48,299 nucleotides of DNA from an uncultured Actinomycetes bacterium (lineage in GTDB: Bacteria > Actinomycetota > Actinomycetes > Nanopelagicales > Nanopelagicaceae). This document shows, piece by piece, positions 7,548 to 37,217 of this stretch (its first letter is position 1; each line of letters starts with the position of its first letter). The notes beneath the pieces were generated by a model. It ran no database searches and had not been told where the DNA came from. It worked only from the letters and a program-made list of their open reading frames with translations. The stretch is from positions 1 through 48,299 of the forward strand of contig CALEGP010000031.1 in NCBI GenBank assembly GCA_937876245.1, read 5' to 3'. Both the position numbers and the translations under genes were made by a program.

Positions 7548-7661
7548 CTAGCAGGTACAGCGGTCAGATTCTGCAACGCCAAATAACGCGTCTTCAACAT
7601 GTTCGCCGCAACCAGACCAAGTGGCTTTTTTGCAACGGTCGCAAGTTACTCTTGAACACAT
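7548..7661 (-). CDS. Cys-rich microprotein, 37 aa (family member A)
   Basis: The protein has Cys2, a Cys7-x2-Cys10 pair, TWSGCGEH giving Cys18-x2-His21, and Cys35 plus Cys37. This looks like a small zinc or thiol knuckle. A paralogue with the same frame of residues lies at 32443-32619 (shared MCSR, TC, KC or RC, TWSGCG, GV and RC). The frame is open upstream to 7730. The start at 7661 is favoured by GGAG 8 bases upstream and by alignment with the paralogue, which also begins MCSR. It diverges from the MFS gene across a CsoR/CstR-type palindrome. The function is unknown; short MCSR-type proteins recur in actinobacteria. Confidence 0.75.
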   Translation of the reverse strand: MCSRVTCDRCKKATWSGCGEHVEDALFGVAESDRCTC

Positions 7662-7703
7662 ATCTATATCTCCTCTGTTTTGGTCTTTACTTGGAGAAGT
7701 TAT

Positions 7704-7731
7704 AGTATACCCCCCAGGGTATATATGCAAA
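7704..7731 (-). promoter_or_regulatory. Promoter of the Cys microprotein gene
   Basis: On the minus strand TTTGCA (7726-7731) and TATACT (7704-7709) are separated by 16 bases, a good sigma-70-type pair. Transcription would start near 7697, leaving a leader of about 36 bases before the ATG at 7661. The spacer and the -10 box are covered by the palindrome at 7705-7724, as expected for a repressor site. Confidence 0.55.
7705..7724. promoter_or_regulatory. CsoR/CstR-type operator between Cys microprotein and MFS genes
   Basis: GTATACCCCCCAGGGTATAT contains ATACCC and GGGTAT half-sites four bases apart. That is the same arrangement as the perfect site ATACCCCTAGGGGTAT at 35005-35020 in front of the CstR-like gene. 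CsoR-family repressors bind such C/G-rich palindromes. The site lies between the divergent genes starting at 7661 and 7750. The regulator at 34681-34968 is the only family member in the window, so it is the likely binder (inference). Confidence 0.6.
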
Positions 7732-7749
7732 GAGCGGAATGGAAGCTAA

Positions 7750-8976
7750 ATGAGCGAACTATCGCTAAAAGAACAGCAGCAAAAGGTTATTCGGGTGTTA
7801 AGCGCGGCCCAGGTTTTAAACGGGGTAGGTGTCACTGGGACGGTTGCGGCAGGCTCGCTTCTGGTCGCATCCATCACAAAATCTGAAGGGCTGGCTGGCT
7901 TAGCCCAGACAACTTCGGTTCTTGGCGCAGCGGCGATGGCTCTGCCTTTGGCGCGTCTTACCCAGAAAGGTGGAAGGCGACTTGCTCTTACTGTCGGATA
8001 TTCCTCTGGGGTTATTGGCGCCGGATTGGCAATATTCGGGGGGACGCAGAGAATTTTATTCTTTATGTTACTTGGTGCATTTATGGTTGGTGCGGCATCA
8101 GCTTCTGGCTATCAAGCAAGGTTTGCCGCAATTGATTTAGCAACACCTGAGAACCGGTCTAAGAATTTATCTTTCGTAGTTTGGGGTTCAACCATCGGGG
8201 CAGTTACCGGCCCAAACTTGATGGAGCCCTCCGGAAATTTTGCAGAATTTTTAGGGCTGCCCAAATTGGTAGGGCCATATTTTATTGCGGCAACAACTTT
8301 ATTTTTAGCCGCTGTGGTTATCCAACTATTTTTAAAGCCTGATCCATATTTAACAGCCAATCGCGCAGCTGATGGCATCTCACAGAAAAAACATGAATCA
8401 ACCCGTGCTGCCCTACTTCATATTCGGAAATATCCGAAAGCGCTTTTTGCGATTGCTTCGGTTGCAATCGGCCACCTTGCAATGGTTTCCATAATGGTAA
8501 TGACGCCAGTTCATATGGCTCATTTCGATGTGACCCTTCGGATAATTGGTTTAGTAATCAGCGTTCATGTTTTGGGGATGTTTGCTTTCTCGCCAATTGT
8601 TGGCGCGCTGAGTGACAAAATAGGGCGGATCGCGACGATTCAAATTGGCGTAGTGATTCTTTTAGCATCTGCGGTAATAACGGCAATCGCCCCCGGGCAC
8701 AATTCTTTTGAGCTTGGTATTGGCCTATTTCTCCTGGGTTTGGGTTGGTCATTTACTTTAATTGCTGGTTCAACGCTCTTATCTGAAACGGTAAGCATCG
8801 ATATGCGACCCGCGACTCAAGGGGCAAGTGACTTGGTTATGAATTTAATGGGCGCCGGCGGAGCAGCAATCGGCGGAGTAATAATCGGAGTTTTTTCCTT
8901 TGCCGCGCTCTGCTATGCCACGGGGCTAGTAGTTCTGGCTCTAGGATTTTGGTCGCTTAAGTTAGTGAAGGCTTAA
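7750..8976 (+). CDS. MFS transporter
   Basis: The 408-aa protein has about 11-12 hydrophobic helices in two halves, with loop marks of the major facilitator superfamily: LARLTQKGGRR after helix 2 (about 68-78) and its second-half counterpart GALSDKIGRIATIQ. Substrate cannot be read from the sequence. It diverges from the Cys microprotein gene, and the CsoR/CstR-type box ends 26 bases before its ATG. Expression is therefore probably tied to sulfane-sulfur or metal stress, and export of a sulfur or metal species is one possibility. Its stop touches the stop of the convergent AraC gene (8976 and 8977) with no terminator space between. Confidence 0.82.
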   Translation: MSELSLKEQQQKVIRVLSAAQVLNGVGVTGTVAAGSLLVASITKSEGLAGLAQTTSVLGAAAMALPLARLTQKGGRRLALTVGYSSGVIGAGLAIFGGTQRILFFMLLGAFMVGAASASGYQARFAAIDLATPENRSKNLSFVVWGSTIGAVTGPNLMEPSGNFAEFLGLPKLVGPYFIAATTLFLAAVVIQLFLKPDPYLTANRAADGISQKKHESTRAALLHIRKYPKALFAIASVAIGHLAMVSIMVMTPVHMAHFDVTLRIIGLVISVHVLGMFAFSPIVGALSDKIGRIATIQIGVVILLASAVITAIAPGHNSFELGIGLFLLGLGWSFTLIAGSTLLSETVSIDMRPATQGASDLVMNLMGAGGAAIGGVIIGVFSFAALCYATGLVVLALGFWSLKLVKA

Positions 8977-9954
8977 TTATTTGCGAATAGTTTCAGAAGG
9001 CAGCTCGCCGAAACGCTCGTAATAAATTTTTGCAAATCTGCCCAAGTGGGTGAAGCCCCAAGAAAATGCGACATCGGCGATTGAGGAGTTAAATCCCTGA
9101 TCAGAAATAAGCTCTTCCCGGACGCGAGTCAGACGCACATTTCGTAAATAATCGGTTGGACTCATGCCAACGTATTTCTTAAATCCATCTTGCAGTGAGC
9201 GAATACTTACGCCGGCAATTCTTGCCATATCCGTAACAGTCAGCGGCTCTTCGGGGCTGGATTCACAGGCTTGCATTGCCAAACGAACTGATCTCGGTGC
9301 AGCCGGTTCAACGCTAGTACCAATCGATTCAGTGTAATTGTGTCTCTGTGAAAGAAGCAGGCTGCTGATAATTAAATCTTGAAATTGATTTCGTACTCCG
9401 GCATGCATCGTCAATCCGCCACGATCAACATCGGTTACCAGGGTGTCAACTAAAGTTCGCCAGCTTCTTGCCTCTGGTGTTGTGAGATCCATTCCTAAGT
9501 CGAAGCGGACTGGCAAGTGAAGTTCGCGGCCAATTAAATCTTCCAGCCGTTCTTCCAAGGTGCTGCGATTTATATAGACCAGAAGTTGTGGATTATCGTC
9601 GTGCCAAATCATGTCCAGTTTTTCCAGCGGATTGGGGATAGAGGCCATGTTTACATCGGAATGAATTGTCTGCTTCCCACAGGTAATTTCTGCGCTTCCC
9701 GAAAGCGGCATTTGAATCAGATAGAAAGAAGTTAGTTCGCCAGGGGTGATATGAACTTCGGCGCCATAATCCAAATAATTTAAAGTCACATCCCCTAGGG
9801 TGACTCGGTTATGGACAGTATTTAATTGCTTGTTCTTCTTAGTTGTCGTAAGGGCGTGGGGGCAAAAAACACGAGCGACTTCACTTCGCGCCTCATCCAA
9901 GTGGGTTGTACGAAATAAATTGTGATCTTTAAGCGCTTCTTGGACTGCCGTCAT
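8977..9954 (-). CDS. AraC-family transcriptional regulator
   Basis: The 325-aa protein has an N-terminal sensing part (about 1-210, cupin-like AraC-binding type; note ITPGELTSFYLIQMPLSG) and a C-terminal pair of helix-turn-helices (about 228-325). The latter reads LTVTDMARIAGVSIRSLQDG and VAFSWGFTHLGRFAKIYYERFGELPS, the standard AraC pattern. Regulators of this build often control oxidative breakdown of aromatic or carboxylic compounds. The gene diverges from the SDR gene at 10111 with a 156-base gap that could hold a shared control region. Regulation of the SDR and possibly of the monooxygenase is an inference. Confidence 0.88.
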   Translation of the reverse strand: MTAVQEALKDHNLFRTTHLDEARSEVARVFCPHALTTTKKNKQLNTVHNRVTLGDVTLNYLDYGAEVHITPGELTSFYLIQMPLSGSAEITCGKQTIHSDVNMASIPNPLEKLDMIWHDDNPQLLVYINRSTLEERLEDLIGRELHLPVRFDLGMDLTTPEARSWRTLVDTLVTDVDRGGLTMHAGVRNQFQDLIISSLLLSQRHNYTESIGTSVEPAAPRSVRLAMQACESSPEEPLTVTDMARIAGVSIRSLQDGFKKYVGMSPTDYLRNVRLTRVREELISDQGFNSSIADVAFSWGFTHLGRFAKIYYERFGELPSETIRK

Positions 9955-10110
9955 TTGCGAATCGTTCTATTTGAGCCATCGGCTGTCAATGGTTTTGCCT
10001 ACTTTTAGCGCGCTTATTTGCGTTCTTTGGATAACCCATGCGTGGCTGGGACACTATTTAGGAGCTGGAATCCATAAGGTCTGCATAATTACTTAAGCTG
10101 GAGGAGAAAA

Positions 10111-10926
10111 ATGAGTTCAGAGCCATCAAAATCAAATAGTTCATCGGGTTCACTAAGCGGCAAGGTTGCAATTGTCACGGGTGGTGGAACGCTATTTGGC
10201 GCAGCAGTAGCCAAAACTTTGATAGCTGATGGCGCCAAAGTTATGATCGTTGAAATTAACGCTGAAAGTGGCAGCGCGGCCGCGAAAGAGTGCGGCGCAA
10301 ATTTCTTTCATGGCGATGTAACTGACGATGCCTCTATTGCAAAACTTATTGATTCCACAATTTCGGCCTGGGGTCGGATAGATATTTTGGTAAATCTTGC
10401 TTGTTCCTATGATGATTCCGGCGCAGAGAGTACTCGTGCGCAATGGACAAATACTTTGAATGTAAATATCTCCAGCGCTGCGATGTTGGCCGCCGCAGTT
10501 CGACCATATATGAAGAGAGAGGGCACCGGATCGATTATCAATCTCACAAGTATTTCTTCAGCGGTCGCACAAACTGGACGTTGGATTTACCCAGTGAGCA
10601 AAGCAGCTTTGGTCCAGTTAACTCGTAACATGGCTATGGATTATGCTGGTGACAAAATTCGAGTGAACTCAGTTTCGCCCGGTTGGACATGGTCGGCAAT
10701 TATGGATTCTCTCTCGAAGGGAGACCGCGCGAAAACAGATCGTGTTGCCGCACCATTTCATTTAACTGGTCGAGTCGGAGATCCCGAGGAAGTCGCAAAT
10801 GTTATTTCATTCTTAGCCAGCGATAAGGCATCTGTTGTTACTGGTGCAGATTGGGCCGCCGATGGCGGTTATTCTGCAATGGGACCGGAGCAAGCTGTGC
10901 CCGCGATCCCATTACTAGAAGCGTAA
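10111..10926 (+). CDS. Short-chain dehydrogenase/reductase
   Basis: This is a 271-aa classical SDR with a Rossmann start VAIVTGGGTLFGAAVAK (cofactor loop TGGGxxxGxxxA, about 23-36). The catalytic Ser is in NLTSISSA, and Tyr and Lys are in YPVSKAALVQLTRNMA. The tail VTGADWAADGGYS is also typical. The usual NNAG stretch reads NLAC here, which is unusual. Asp near the first turn has been replaced by a VEIN stretch, suggesting NAD rather than NADP preference, though this is uncertain. A strong GGAGGA ribosome site precedes the ATG. It is divergent from the AraC regulator and ends at a clear hairpin terminator. Substrate unknown. Confidence 0.88.
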   Translation: MSSEPSKSNSSSGSLSGKVAIVTGGGTLFGAAVAKTLIADGAKVMIVEINAESGSAAAKECGANFFHGDVTDDASIAKLIDSTISAWGRIDILVNLACSYDDSGAESTRAQWTNTLNVNISSAAMLAAAVRPYMKREGTGSIINLTSISSAVAQTGRWIYPVSKAALVQLTRNMAMDYAGDKIRVNSVSPGWTWSAIMDSLSKGDRAKTDRVAAPFHLTGRVGDPEEVANVISFLASDKASVVTGADWAADGGYSAMGPEQAVPAIPLLEA

Positions 10927-32446: not shown

Positions 32447-32619
32447 TTCTTCCCAAATAATCTGCTAAATAGTCCGGGGCCTCTTGGCTTAACAGGGTCA
32501 TTTTGATGACCTTGGCAACGCTGAGATTTTGGAACACCATTTAGCGCTATCTCAATATGATTTCCGCATCCACTCCAAGTTGGCTTGCTGCATTTGCGAC
32601 ATGTTGTTCTGCTACACAT
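32443..32619 (-). CDS. Cys-rich microprotein, 58 aa (family member B)
   Basis: The protein begins MCSRTTCRKCSKPTWSGCGN, matching the 37-aa protein at 7548-7661 residue by residue in its Cys2, Cys7-x2-Cys10, Cys18-x2-His21 and Cys35 positions. It adds a 20-residue basic tail ending FSRLFGKN. A small zinc or thiol knuckle is likely. It is the last gene of the minus-strand run from the CstR-like regulator (34968), 36 bases after the polysulfide-reductase gene, and its stop overlaps the acs stop. Being beside sulfur-handling genes, it may carry or sense sulfane sulfur or metal; this is inference. Confidence 0.72.
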   Translation of the reverse strand: MCSRTTCRKCSKPTWSGCGNHIEIALNGVPKSQRCQGHQNDPVKPRGPGLFSRLFGKN

Positions 32620-32655: not shown

Positions 32656-34287
32656 CTAAGTAGTTACAAGTTGAGTTAAGACTGCTGGGGAATTAACCCA
32701 TGTGTGATATCCACCGTCAAGATTTTTTGCCTCGACTCCAAGTTCATTCAATAACAGGGTCGCGGTGTGGCCACGTTGTCCGGCATAGCAAAATACAAGG
32801 ACATCGTGAGTTGGAATTTCAGAAACTCTCTCACGCAGTTCATCAACCGGAATGTTAATTGCACCCGGAATTGCACCGGCTGCGAATTCAGACTTTGAAC
32901 GGACATCTAATAAATTGTGGCCGCCGACTTCACTCCATTGCAAAGTTTCGATCAACCCAGAAATCTGATTTTCTGCAACGTACCCCAGCATATTTACCGC
33001 GTCCTTGGCTGAACCAAATGGCGGAGCATATGCCAATTCCAGATCAGCGAGCTCTGGTGCGCTTATTCCGCCACGTATAGCGGTGGCAATAACATCGATC
33101 CGCTTATCAACACCTTCATAGCCAACGCCCTGAGCTCCGTAAATTTCTCCAGATTTTGCATCGAAAATTAATTTCAGAGACATCTGTTCTGCTCCCGGGT
33201 AATAGCCGGCATGTGAACTTGGGTGGGTATGAATTATTTTATAATCCCGGCTTGTTGCTGCAAGTCGTTTTTCATTCCATCCTGTTGTAGCAATAGTTAA
33301 TTCAAATACTTTAACGATTGCAGTTCCAATTGTTGGGACAACTCGAACATCACGACCAAGAATGTGATCAGCGACAACGCGCCCATGGCGATTGGCCAGA
33401 TTTGCTAATGGAACCAAGGTGGAAGTGCCGTCGAGGGCATCCTTCTTCTGGGCAGCATCACCAATTGCATAAATATCAGGATCGGTTGTCTGATTAAATT
33501 CATTGACATCGATTCCGCCGCGTTCACCAATTACCAATCCTGCACTCTTGGCTAGGTCGACATCAGGGCGAACTCCAATTGCCATAATAACGAGATCAGC
33601 ATCAATCTGACGACCATCGATTAGTTCAACAGATTTCTCACCAATTGCGACAACAGATTTATCTAAAATGAGGTCCACGCCATTCCGCGCTAATTCGCTG
33701 TGAACGAAGAAAGCCATCTCTGGATCGAGCGCTGCTAGAACTTGTGGTGCTGCTTCAACAATCGAAGTTGCAATGCCTCGGTGGATCAGATTCTCGGCAA
33801 TTTCTACGCCAATGAATCCGCCGCCAATAACCACTGCGCTTTTTGGCTTATCTGTTACAGCAAGTGTGATGCGCTCGACATCTTCGACCGTACGTAGAGT
33901 CATTGCCCGCTCTGATCCCGGAATATTTGGCCGAATAGGCGAAGCCCCTGGGCTTAAAATAAGTTTGTCATAATTTATTGCGTACTCTTCTTGAGTCACA
34001 AGATTGCGAACTAAAACAGTTTTAGTGGCTCGGTTTATCGATAAAGCTTCATTGGCTACCCGCACATCCAGTCGGAAGCGAATATGAAGGCTTTCTGGCG
34101 TCTGTAGAAGTAGTGAGTCTTCTTTCTCGATAATTCCGCCGACGTAATATGGTAGTCCGCAATTTGCATACGAAACGTAACCGCTTTTTTCTAGAACAAT
34201 TATTTCGGCACTCGCATCTAGTCTACGTAGTCTGGTTGCGGCAGACATACCGCCCGCAACTCCGCCAACAATTACTATTTTTTTCAT
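32656..34287 (-). CDS. CoA-disulfide / polysulfide reductase with C-terminal rhodanese domain
   Basis: The 543-aa flavoprotein begins IVIVGGVAGGMSAATRLRR (FAD). It carries the single redox Cys43 in SYANCGLPYYVGG, typical of CoA-disulfide reductases and NADH-dependent persulfide reductases. A second nucleotide motif is AVVIGGGFIGVEIAENL and the FAD end IYAIGDAAQKKD. Residues about 440-543 form a rhodanese domain with Cys500 in FCYAGQRGH. The fusion matches CDR-RHD/Npsr enzymes that reduce CoA persulfide or polysulfide. It follows the rhodanese lipoprotein gene by one base, in the CstR-controlled operon. The natural substrate is not certain. Confidence 0.9.
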   Translation of the reverse strand: MKKIVIVGGVAGGMSAATRLRRLDASAEIIVLEKSGYVSYANCGLPYYVGGIIEKEDSLLLQTPESLHIRFRLDVRVANEALSINRATKTVLVRNLVTQEEYAINYDKLILSPGASPIRPNIPGSERAMTLRTVEDVERITLAVTDKPKSAVVIGGGFIGVEIAENLIHRGIATSIVEAAPQVLAALDPEMAFFVHSELARNGVDLILDKSVVAIGEKSVELIDGRQIDADLVIMAIGVRPDVDLAKSAGLVIGERGGIDVNEFNQTTDPDIYAIGDAAQKKDALDGTSTLVPLANLANRHGRVVADHILGRDVRVVPTIGTAIVKVFELTIATTGWNEKRLAATSRDYKIIHTHPSSHAGYYPGAEQMSLKLIFDAKSGEIYGAQGVGYEGVDKRIDVIATAIRGGISAPELADLELAYAPPFGSAKDAVNMLGYVAENQISGLIETLQWSEVGGHNLLDVRSKSEFAAGAIPGAINIPVDELRERVSEIPTHDVLVFCYAGQRGHTATLLLNELGVEAKNLDGGYHTWVNSPAVLTQLVTT

Positions 34288-34288
34288 T

Positions 34289-34678
34289 TTAATTCAGCAC
34301 GACCGGTTGGCCAGCCGCAGTCCAGCCTGCGATTCCACCATTCAAATTAAATAATGAAGTGAAGCCTAATTTCGACATTTCGGAAGTAGCAATTCCAGAT
34401 CTACGCCCACTCTGGCAATAGACCGCATATGTTTTCGTTTTGTTGAGTTTGGACACATCAGATGTGAATTGCATGCCTTCAATATCAATATTGATTGAAT
34501 TAGCTAAATGACCAGCAGCATATTCTCCCGGTGTGCGAACATCAAGAACAATTGTTGAAGCACTGGTCGCGGTCGTCGCAAAATCAGCGACCCCTTGATT
34601 GGTAACAGAACCTCCGGAAGAGCCACAGCTGGTCAGGAGGATCGCAGAAAGTCCGAAAATAGCAAATATTTTTCTCAT
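34289..34678 (-). CDS. Rhodanese-domain lipoprotein
   Basis: The 129-aa protein has a lipoprotein signal (hydrophobic stretch, lipobox LLTSC with Cys18) and one rhodanese domain. LDVRTPGEYAAGHLANSINI is the CH2A-like opening and YCQSGRRSG holds the active Cys88. It would sit on the outside of the membrane and pass sulfane sulfur there. It is encoded two bases after the CstR-like gene and one base before the polysulfide reductase gene, so all three are one operon. The active loop CQSGRR favours sulfur transfer rather than phosphatase activity. Confidence 0.9.
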   Translation of the reverse strand: MRKIFAIFGLSAILLTSCGSSGGSVTNQGVADFATTATSASTIVLDVRTPGEYAAGHLANSINIDIEGMQFTSDVSKLNKTKTYAVYCQSGRRSGIATSEMSKLGFTSLFNLNGGIAGWTAAGQPVVLN

Positions 34679-34680
34679 TA

Positions 34681-34968
34681 TTAAGCCAAACTTAAGAATA
34701 GTTTTTGAAGTTTTTCACTTACGGCATCTGAGTTGGATTTTCCTTCAACGATGCACTCTTTGAGGCTTGCTGAAATAAGAGTGAATGCTGCGGTATTAAT
34801 CGCCTTGCTTACAGCAGACATTTGGATAACAATCTCATCGCAACTGCGCCCTTCATCAAGCATTCGAGCAACTGCACCAAGTTGTCCCTGAGCGCGTTTA
34901 ACGCGCTTAGAAATTGCATCTACCTGCTCTTGGTCAGATAGGACATGTCCTGCGCTTTTCACAGCCAT
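34681..34968 (-). CDS. cstR: CsoR-family repressor, CstR-like (persulfide-sensing type)
   Basis: The 95-aa all-helical protein has the CsoR-family core KRVKRAQGQLGAVARMLDEG, then Cys43 and Cys72, 29 residues apart as in CsoR and CstR. Copper-binding CsoR also needs a His four residues before the second Cys. Here that position is Ser68 (SASLKEC), so copper binding is unlikely and the persulfide-sensing CstR group fits best. The context agrees: rhodanese, polysulfide reductase and sulfide:quinone reductase genes. Its own promoter overlaps the perfect palindrome at 35005-35020, so it is probably autoregulated. Confidence 0.85.
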   Translation of the reverse strand: MAVKSAGHVLSDQEQVDAISKRVKRAQGQLGAVARMLDEGRSCDEIVIQMSAVSKAINTAAFTLISASLKECIVEGKSNSDAVSEKLQKLFLSLA

Positions 34969-35004: not shown

Positions 35005-35020
35005 ATACCCCTAGGGGTAT
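35005..35020. promoter_or_regulatory. CstR-type operator between cstR and the DUF2202 gene
   Basis: ATACCCCTAGGGGTAT is a perfect 16-base palindrome. It lies between divergent promoters: minus-strand TTGACT and TAAAGT 18 bases apart toward cstR, and plus-strand TGGACT and TATAGT 18 bases apart toward the DUF2202 gene. In both directions the operator fills the spacer or -10 area. This is the classic CsoR/CstR site form, and a related site is at 7705-7724. Confidence 0.82.
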
Positions 35021-35068: not shown

Positions 35069-35569
35069 ATGAGAAAGAAATTAGTAGCCACTGGAATCGT
35101 TCTGGCCCTAGCGATAGGCCCAATCGTCCAAGTTTCAGCAGCAACACTTCCTGCTGCAACCAAGGCTTCACTGAGATTTATGGTCGAGGAAGAGAAGTTG
35201 GCTCGGGATGTCTATACAACCCTTTATGCAAAAACTGGGTTAAACCAATTTAAGAATATATCTAAAGCAGAACAGACCCATATGGATTTAGTGCGCGGGC
35301 TACTAAAGACTTACGGAATTAAAGATCCAACCATTGGCAAAGCTGTTGGAAAGTTCAATAATGCTTCGCTGACTGCCCTATATAAGAAGTTAATTGCAGA
35401 TGGCAGCGTTTCACTTGTTGCAGCTCTCAATGCAGGAATTGCTGTTGAGAAGAAGGACATTGCCGACATCGACAAGATTCTAAAGATTAAACAGCCAGAT
35501 GATGTTAAGTATGTTTTAGATCGCTTACTCGCTGGTTCTTATAATCACTTAGCAGCTTTCACTCGTTAA
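35069..35569 (+). CDS. Secreted DUF2202 (ferritin-like) protein
   Basis: The 166-aa protein starts with a signal peptide (cleavage near residue 24, VQVSA). The rest is a DUF2202 four-helix domain: FMVEEEKLARDVYTTLY with Glu40-42, KAEQTHMDLV with Glu68 and His71, AVEKKDIADIDK with Glu127 and Asp130, and GSYNHLAAFTR with His160. These acids and histidines sit where ferritin-like proteins hold two metal ions. It would act outside the membrane. It diverges from cstR across the shared operator, so it is probably expressed under sulfide or persulfide stress. Its reaction is not known. GGAG precedes the ATG. Confidence 0.85.
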   Translation: MRKKLVATGIVLALAIGPIVQVSAATLPAATKASLRFMVEEEKLARDVYTTLYAKTGLNQFKNISKAEQTHMDLVRGLLKTYGIKDPTIGKAVGKFNNASLTALYKKLIADGSVSLVAALNAGIAVEKKDIADIDKILKIKQPDDVKYVLDRLLAGSYNHLAAFTR

Positions 35570-35759: not shown

Positions 35760-37217
35760 TTACTCTGGAATCAAAAACCAGCCGAAGCGAGCCTTTGCCT
35801 TATAGATAAACATGTAATGCAGAAGTAATTTGATCCAATGACCAGCTAATCCAATTTCGCCAAAAGTATCATCTACGCTTCGACCGGTATTTGGAAACTT
35901 TAAATAGTCAGGAACAACTGGAAACATTGTCATAGAAGCAGCGCTACCTTTTCGTAATCCAGACCCCGCAGATGCCACACAAGCTGCTCCCATTTCTGCC
36001 ATTGAGGCCGTGTGAACTTTTGCGCTCTTCCCAGATTTGATCATTGCCGCAATATTTAGCGCAGCGACTTTCCCCATAATTCCTGATGGCATGCCTGTTC
36101 TTGGTGGCGAAGGAGCTACCAGCGTGCCATTTGGTGATTTTCGAGGTTTCGAAATTTGATGTGGTGGTGCAAAGGCTATCCCAACCGCAAATACATTGGG
36201 GTATTTAGGGACTTGATAAGTCTTTGGCCAATCTGAAGCTAGCCATTCTTCATAAGGCTTTCCACTGTAGTCAGCATCAACTTTCATGAAGCCGCTTGGT
36301 GCAAAAATTTCATTCGAAATATCTGTGCCATCTTTTTCAAAGGCCCTCATGTCCACACCTCTAAATGGTGGCAATAACATTGCAAAGTCAAAGAGCAAAG
36401 TTCCCTTTGTGCCATCTACAAGTTCGTAATGAATGAGACCAGCTTCAATTTTCTCAACATGGGCGCCCAAGATTGCACGAATGTTTCGCTCTCTAAATAA
36501 CGATTCAGTCCATAGTTTTGAGGTGGTCTGGAATCCGCGTTGCGCAAAAATAAGTCCACCAACACCAAAATCCCCAAGTTCAAATTCATTTGTTAAATAG
36601 ATAATCTCGGCAAGTTCCCGGACGCCCGCTTGCTTCAACTCGTGCTCAACATTGAATGTGTACTCAAAGGCGGCGCCTTCACAAGTACAGGTTCCATGTC
36701 CAACTCCGATGACCAAGGTTTGCCTCTGACCGGCTTTTAATTTTTCAATTACACCTTTAAGTGAATGAGCAGCTTCAATTGCGTGATCTGAAGTGCAGAC
36801 TGAAACTGTGTGACCATCTGGGCCAAGTCCTTCGGTAGCCGCAAAATTTAATTTTGGCCCGGTAGCATTTATTAAATAATCGTATTTAATTTTTGCAGTT
36901 ACACCGCTCAATTCTGAACTTGTGTAGGTAACATCGATAAATGCTGATTCGGTCTGTGCATCCCCGGCTGGATGCACACCGGTTGCAAGTGCTTGGTGAT
37001 GAGTAATTTTCATCTTTTTGTAAACGGGAGCCAAAGGGAATGTAACTTGTGTTTTATTCATCTTGCCAACACCAACCCAAATATTGGATGGGATCCAGTT
37101 GTATTTGGAATTTGGCGAAACAACTATTACTTCATCATTCGATTTTAAAATTCTCTTCAAATGCAAAGCTGCGGTATGTCCTGCTATGCCTGCGCCCATA
37201 ACAACAACTCGTGCCAC
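35760..37217 (-). CDS. Sulfide:quinone oxidoreductase-like flavoprotein
   Basis: The 485-aa protein begins with the FAD motif VVVMGAGIAGHTAALHLKR and has the SQR-family stretches LINATGPKLNFAATEGLG, PPFRGVDMRAF and NVFAVGIAFAPPH. Candidate redox cysteines are Cys141, the Cys177-x-Cys179 pair and Cys413. SQRs take electrons from sulfide into the quinone pool and form sulfane sulfur; a hydrophobic C-terminal end (LLLHYMFIYKAKARF) fits membrane attachment. The start is GTG at 37217 behind GGGAG. Neighbouring genes handle polysulfide, which supports the sulfide role. It could instead be a type II NADH dehydrogenase-like relative, but that is less likely. Confidence 0.83.
   Translation of the reverse strand: MARVVVMGAGIAGHTAALHLKRILKSNDEVIVVSPNSKYNWIPSNIWVGVGKMNKTQVTFPLAPVYKKMKITHHQALATGVHPAGDAQTESAFIDVTYTSSELSGVTAKIKYDYLINATGPKLNFAATEGLGPDGHTVSVCTSDHAIEAAHSLKGVIEKLKAGQRQTLVIGVGHGTCTCEGAAFEYTFNVEHELKQAGVRELAEIIYLTNEFELGDFGVGGLIFAQRGFQTTSKLWTESLFRERNIRAILGAHVEKIEAGLIHYELVDGTKGTLLFDFAMLLPPFRGVDMRAFEKDGTDISNEIFAPSGFMKVDADYSGKPYEEWLASDWPKTYQVPKYPNVFAVGIAFAPPHQISKPRKSPNGTLVAPSPPRTGMPSGIMGKVAALNIAAMIKSGKSAKVHTASMAEMGAACVASAGSGLRKGSAASMTMFPVVPDYLKFPNTGRSVDDTFGEIGLAGHWIKLLLHYMFIYKAKARFGWFLIPE

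Follow-up and report, generated by a model that had tools for sequence, protein, structure and literature searches.

Within positions 7548 to 8976 of the window, by which we mean the whole 48,299-nucleotide stretch that was analyzed, two divergent genes encode a cysteine-rich microprotein and an MFS transporter. Between them lies a palindromic box, ATACCCCCCAGGGTAT, which is part of the sequence GTATACCCCCCAGGGTATAT (Table 1). The window represents one contig of a 1.52-Mb genome that comprises 39 contigs and is ~100% complete. It also contains a second box, ATACCCCTAGGGGTAT, located in the promoter of the gene for a CsoR-family regulator, 27 kb from the first one. Both boxes are built of ATACCC, four bases, and GGGTAT, and thus the common half-sites and spacing, as well as the distance to the regulator gene, are as stated in the original prediction. 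Moreover, both match letter for letter the ATACCn6GGTAT consensus, a 16-bp palindrome that ScCsoR of S. coelicolor was experimentally demonstrated to bind at its targets (PMC7533328). ScCsoR is released by polysulfide and controls the genes for persulfide dioxygenase, rhodanese, and TauE as well as its own gene (PMC7533328).

Table 1. Genes and predicted regulatory elements in the window.
Feature	Coordinates	Strand	Remarks
Cys microprotein 1 (mp1), 37 aa, MCSRVTCDRCKKATWSGCGEHVEDALFGVAESDRCTC	7548..7661	-	No Pfam/NCBIfam family
Sigma-70-like promoter TTTGCA-16-TATACT	7704..7731	-	Overlapped by operator; reads to mp1
CstR-type operator ATACCCCCCAGGGTAT (predicted)	7707..7722	.	Between mp1 and MFS; fits ATACCn6GGTAT of ScCsoR (PMC7533328)
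MFS transporter, 408 aa	7750..8976	+	PF07690
Cys microprotein 2 (mp2), MCSRTTCRKCSKPTWSGCGNHIEIALNGVPKSQRCQGHQ	32503..32619	-	Last gene of cstR operon, directly behind CDR gene
CoA-disulfide-reductase-like (CDR) flavoprotein, C-terminal rhodanese domain	32656..34287	-	Below NCBIfam cut-off for CoA-disulfide reductase
Rhodanese lipoprotein	34289..34678	-	In cstR operon; PF00581
CstR	34681..34968	-	Sole CsoR-family repressor of genome; PF02583; C-x28-C, Ser for copper His
cstR operator ATACCCCTAGGGGTAT (predicted)	35005..35020	.	Between cstR and DUF2202 gene
DUF2202 protein	35069..35569	+	Divergent from cstR across same operator
SQR-like flavoprotein	35760..37217	-	Adjoins cstR cluster; without own box

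The box at 7707-7722 covers most of the 16-base spacer of a sigma-70-like promoter together with three bases of its -10 hexamer. Because TTTGCA and TATACT lie on the minus strand, they would drive the microprotein. Thus, of the proposal that the box overlaps this promoter and drives both genes, the overlap and the microprotein held up, while the promoter does not read toward the transporter. No sigma-70-like promoter toward the MFS gene was found; however, a mere 27 bp separate its ATG from the box, and a bound repressor would therefore still sit at the MFS promoter or leader. On the microprotein side, the box is separated by 45 bp from the ATG at 7661, which is preceded by a Shine-Dalgarno-like GGAG. 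An alternative start at TTG 7730 was disfavored in view of the GGAG and of the homologs, some of which have a start codon overlapping the box.

The microprotein is present twice in the window, the copy at the end of the cstR operon having been missed by the original prediction. To follow its association with the box, we used the 99 copies from other, named public genomes for which enough upstream sequence was available. A perfect box was found no more than 200 bp upstream of 35 of them and a box with one mismatch upstream of one more. With a single exception at 150 bp, these 36 boxes were positioned 25 to 60 bp before the microprotein start. Nearly all the remaining copies showed at least four mismatches, that is, no box, and the reversed control pattern never had fewer than three. 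In other families of the phylum, ATACCN6GGTAT was detected at 12 of 29 microprotein loci, as compared to none for the control. Together, these comparisons make it highly likely that the microprotein is under CstR, and they identify it, rather than the MFS transporter, as the main conserved predicted target of this regulator.

An overlap of the box with the microprotein start codon (GGGTATG), as found in several of the loci from other families, was noted at seven loci; the transcripts may thus be leaderless, with the operator lying over the start. On Curtobacterium and Clavibacter plasmids, the microprotein is unannotated and is clustered with genes for a metal-sensitive (CsoR-family) regulator, for rhodanese, and for TauE or FAD-reductase. 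A Microbacterium plasmid has it flanked by thioredoxin and an MBL-fold protein, upstream of TauE and rhodanese. The microprotein is also present in many genomes without CstR. At seven loci lacking a box, it follows a PF03601 (YeiH-like) transporter by 13 to 51 bp, and at five others, it lies ~38 bp behind a FUSC/ArAE-like transporter and is followed by a zinc-type alcohol dehydrogenase. Both the FUSC/ArAE-like and the YeiH-like neighbors occur in genomes without the box.

No Pfam or NCBIfam model fitted the microprotein, and Pfam searched at E values of up to 1 gave weak partial matches. Searches against the PDB returned no relative by sequence and no significant fold match. In the AF2 model (mean pLDDT of 86), a beta hairpin is combined with a short helix. 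The invariant residues include C2, C7, C10, W15, G17, C18, G19, H21, and C35; the ligands of the CxxC...CxxH arrangement are C7xxC10...C18xxH21, while C2, C35, and C37 are extra cysteines. Judging by the model and the conserved residues, we are probably dealing with a small thiol protein resembling a zinc ribbon, which carries or buffers sulfane sulfur. We tentatively propose, as a possible but less than likely extension, that the microprotein constitutes an undescribed, widespread component of actinobacterial sulfane-sulfur defense and one of the most constant direct CstR targets. As a carrier of zinc-thiol or persulfide type, it would pass sulfur on to a partner exporter (MFS, YeiH-like, or FUSC-like) or gate it.

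The distribution of the transporter was different. The MFS gene was found in 75 genomes of the family, 35 with and 40 without a CsoR-family gene, which corresponds to a weak association (P 0.045). Because 40 genomes carry it without a CsoR-family gene, the transporter is not dedicated to CstR, in contrast to what had been proposed. Orthologs from the same genus (80-86% identity) are found in another gene context and have no box, and this includes three genomes in which a CsoR-family gene is present. The divergent MFS-box-microprotein layout is also present at L092/L156 (G127, Candidatus Planktophila), L157, and L125, where cstR follows it. The transporters of G127/L156, L157, and L125 form a separate clade with 64 to 66% identity to the window MFS, and the MFS tree requires two independent origins of the layout (the broader label "near cst genes" requires 5 changes). 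A joint origin of the window MFS and its box from the L125/L157 clade was ruled out, as the window MFS groups with its own genus. Other orthologs adjoin cstR or SQR-thioredoxin clusters, and nine loci including the window have a box-linked MFS. Four loci without a box contain MFS-microprotein operons with genes 5 to 9 bp apart, and the gene order in G054 is MFS-rhodanese-microprotein. That the MFS has come to lie beside these partners repeatedly speaks for a functional link. At L159:2874-5111, we observed AraC and SDR genes 98% identical to those at window positions 8977-10926; just the last 20 MFS codons are left there before the microprotein, and the MFS seems to have been deleted.

These results bear on whether the operator serves the microprotein only, with the MFS being a chance divergent neighbor that has its own constitutive transcription. 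Such an arrangement would agree with the sole recognizable promoter reading to the microprotein, with the conserved spacing between box and microprotein, and with the absence of the box from most MFS orthologs, including those of the same genus. However, with 27 bp to the MFS ATG, the MFS promoter must contain or adjoin the operator. In addition, another MFS clade acquired this divergent layout separately, and MFS orthologs share operons or clusters with the microprotein, rhodanese, and cst genes. We therefore consider control of the microprotein only to be unlikely. Control of both genes is the reading that we prefer, and judging by the 27-bp distance and the recurrent gene order, the MFS gene is probably under CstR here.

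As for its function, the MFS had no relative in the PDB by sequence or profile, and its AF2 model was poor (mean pLDDT 59.6). That it moves a sulfur compound has, in our estimate, slightly less than an even chance; the envisaged activity would be the export of a sulfur product or a thiol conjugate. In agreement with the original prediction, the papers compared do not describe an MFS as a component of cst systems; the transporter of S. aureus and S. coelicolor is TauE (PMC5480029, PMC7533328). A search of literature that covered few subscription journals found no MFS under a CsoR-family sulfur sensor. In the present genome, no PF01925 (TauE/SafE) gene is located at a CstR operator; its two TauE genes (contigs C9 and C34) are near none of the three boxes found.

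The regulator that is expected to act on these boxes is encoded by the single CsoR-family gene of the genome. Its cysteines are 29 residues apart (C-x28-C) at the C31/C60 positions, and a serine occupies the position at which copper sensors have their Cu(I)-ligand histidine. The 38 proteins of this kind that could be scored in the bacterial family all have C-x28-C as well and lack the copper histidine, with Ser, Asn, or Gly in its place. The C-x28-C spacing and the missing histidine thus assign the regulator to the CstR type and not to the copper type, and sequence comparison confirmed that the C-H-C copper site is absent from the window regulator. The best PDB match is 7mq1, which is labeled as copper-sensing CsoR and which we take to be Enterococcus faecalis CstR; a literature search for this code returned nothing, and the assignment to the CstR type is made independently of this match.

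In relatives, the boxes are flanked by cstR-rhodanese-CDR, SQR, persulfide dioxygenase, thioredoxin, DUF2202, Cys microprotein, and MFS genes, which by their predicted products are a reactive-sulfur set. The cstR operon itself carries sulfurtransferase genes (rhodanese and CDR-rhodanese), and SQR and persulfide dioxygenase are found at boxes in relatives. In many of these, SQR is directly behind the box, while the SQR-like gene of the window has none. The divergent DUF2202-cstR arrangement is kept in several relatives; a role of DUF2202 in reactive-sulfur defense is not described in the literature compared. A copper-sensing CsoR that binds the box, with the MFS/microprotein pair handling copper, would be in line with the similar consensus of CsoR/RicR copper operators (PMC7533328) and with the Cys-rich, metal-ligand-like character of the microprotein. 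It is nevertheless very improbable, as the ~100% complete genome has no second CsoR-family gene, the only protein of this family lacks the Cu(I) histidine, and the genes flanking the boxes in relatives are sulfur genes. A separate copper-type CsoR had been named by the original prediction as a competing binder of the site, and examination of the genome found none.

Searching the whole 1.52-Mb genome with ATACCCNNNNGGGTAT gave exactly three perfect matches, the two boxes of the window and a third one on another contig (C24:7937-7952, corresponding to L002:1501-1516), which precedes a thioredoxin gene by 84 bp. The genome-wide motif search suggested earlier thus supported the predicted sites, which were perfect with none for the control, but raised their number from two to three. 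On the opposite side of the third box, further away, is a DHA2-type MFS gene, and thioredoxin is also found at a box in several relatives. The letter-reversed control pattern was absent from this genome, and the 151 genomes of the family contained it 10 times (about 0.07 per genome). The chance expectation for the box is ~0.07 to 0.09 per genome as compared to the 3 found [Poisson P(≥3) ~5e-5]. Among the 151 family genomes, which represent 17 genera, 55 had both the box and a CsoR-family gene, 3 had the gene only, none had the box only, and 93 had neither. This association was strong (Fisher 4.5e-38, a statistic that ignores kinship), while the reversed control pattern showed none in the same genomes. 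Although a single short motif could arise in a moderately AT-rich genome, a functionless chance palindrome can be practically dismissed given this excess over expectation, the location of all three boxes upstream of plausible sulfur genes, and the strict co-occurrence of box and regulator.

Together, these data indicate that the palindrome at 7707-7722 is very likely an operator of the CstR encoded at 34681-34968. The distributed regulon that had been postulated is likewise supported, as the genome has three sites and one CstR-type regulator but lacks a copper-type CsoR. In a resting cell, the box would be occupied by a CstR tetramer, which would cover the spacer along with the edge of the microprotein -10 element and at the same time obstruct the MFS promoter or leader. 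Build-up of polysulfide or persulfide would lead to the modification of the CstR cysteines and to its departure from DNA. The derepressed set would include CstR-rhodanese-CoA-disulfide-reductase-mp2, DUF2202, thioredoxin, mp1, and the MFS. The binding and release steps are what we would expect by analogy from the named family. Taken as a whole, a CstR operator at 7707-7722 that controls mp1 and the MFS in a persulfide response is the likely explanation of the locus. A single motif has thus led to a predicted CstR regulon of three sites in an actinobacterium that is streamlined and has only one such regulator. The conserved microprotein was skipped by standard annotation despite its place behind predicted CstR operators across the phylum. 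Finally, an uncharacterized MFS family gains a testable role in reactive-sulfur defense, for which the evidence is its independent evolutionary recruitment.

The regulon is a variant of known CstR systems with one undescribed conserved component, the microprotein. One of its closest counterparts is the S. coelicolor ScCsoR system (PMC7533328), which likewise has an actinobacterial two-Cys CsoR-like repressor, the ATACCn6GGTAT operator, and control over rhodanese and the regulator's own gene, and for which release by polysulfide has been demonstrated. The ScCsoR circuit, however, consists of four adjacent genes (regulator, persulfide dioxygenase, rhodanese, and TauE), while the one described here is spread over three places and includes a CoA-disulfide-reductase-like protein, thioredoxin, DUF2202, microproteins, and the MFS, with no TauE at a box. 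S. aureus CstR (PMC5480029), a CsoR-family protein as well, is a persulfide sensor whose two cysteines are reactive, and it has sulfurtransferase and SQR genes nearby. The conclusion drawn there was that it probably controls just one operon, composed of tauE, cstA, cstB, and sqr (PMC5480029), in contrast to the three sites, the MFS, and the microprotein family found here. Copper-sensing CsoR/RicR share the protein family and a similar operator consensus, but the present regulator lacks the copper histidine and is encoded beside sulfur genes. Last, Bacillus licheniformis YrkD (PMC9918477) is likewise CstR-like and acts as a repressor at more than one site; its operators belong to a contiguous sulfur-oxidation cluster of 11 genes with NreBC, for which the passages compared describe no MFS-box-microprotein unit.
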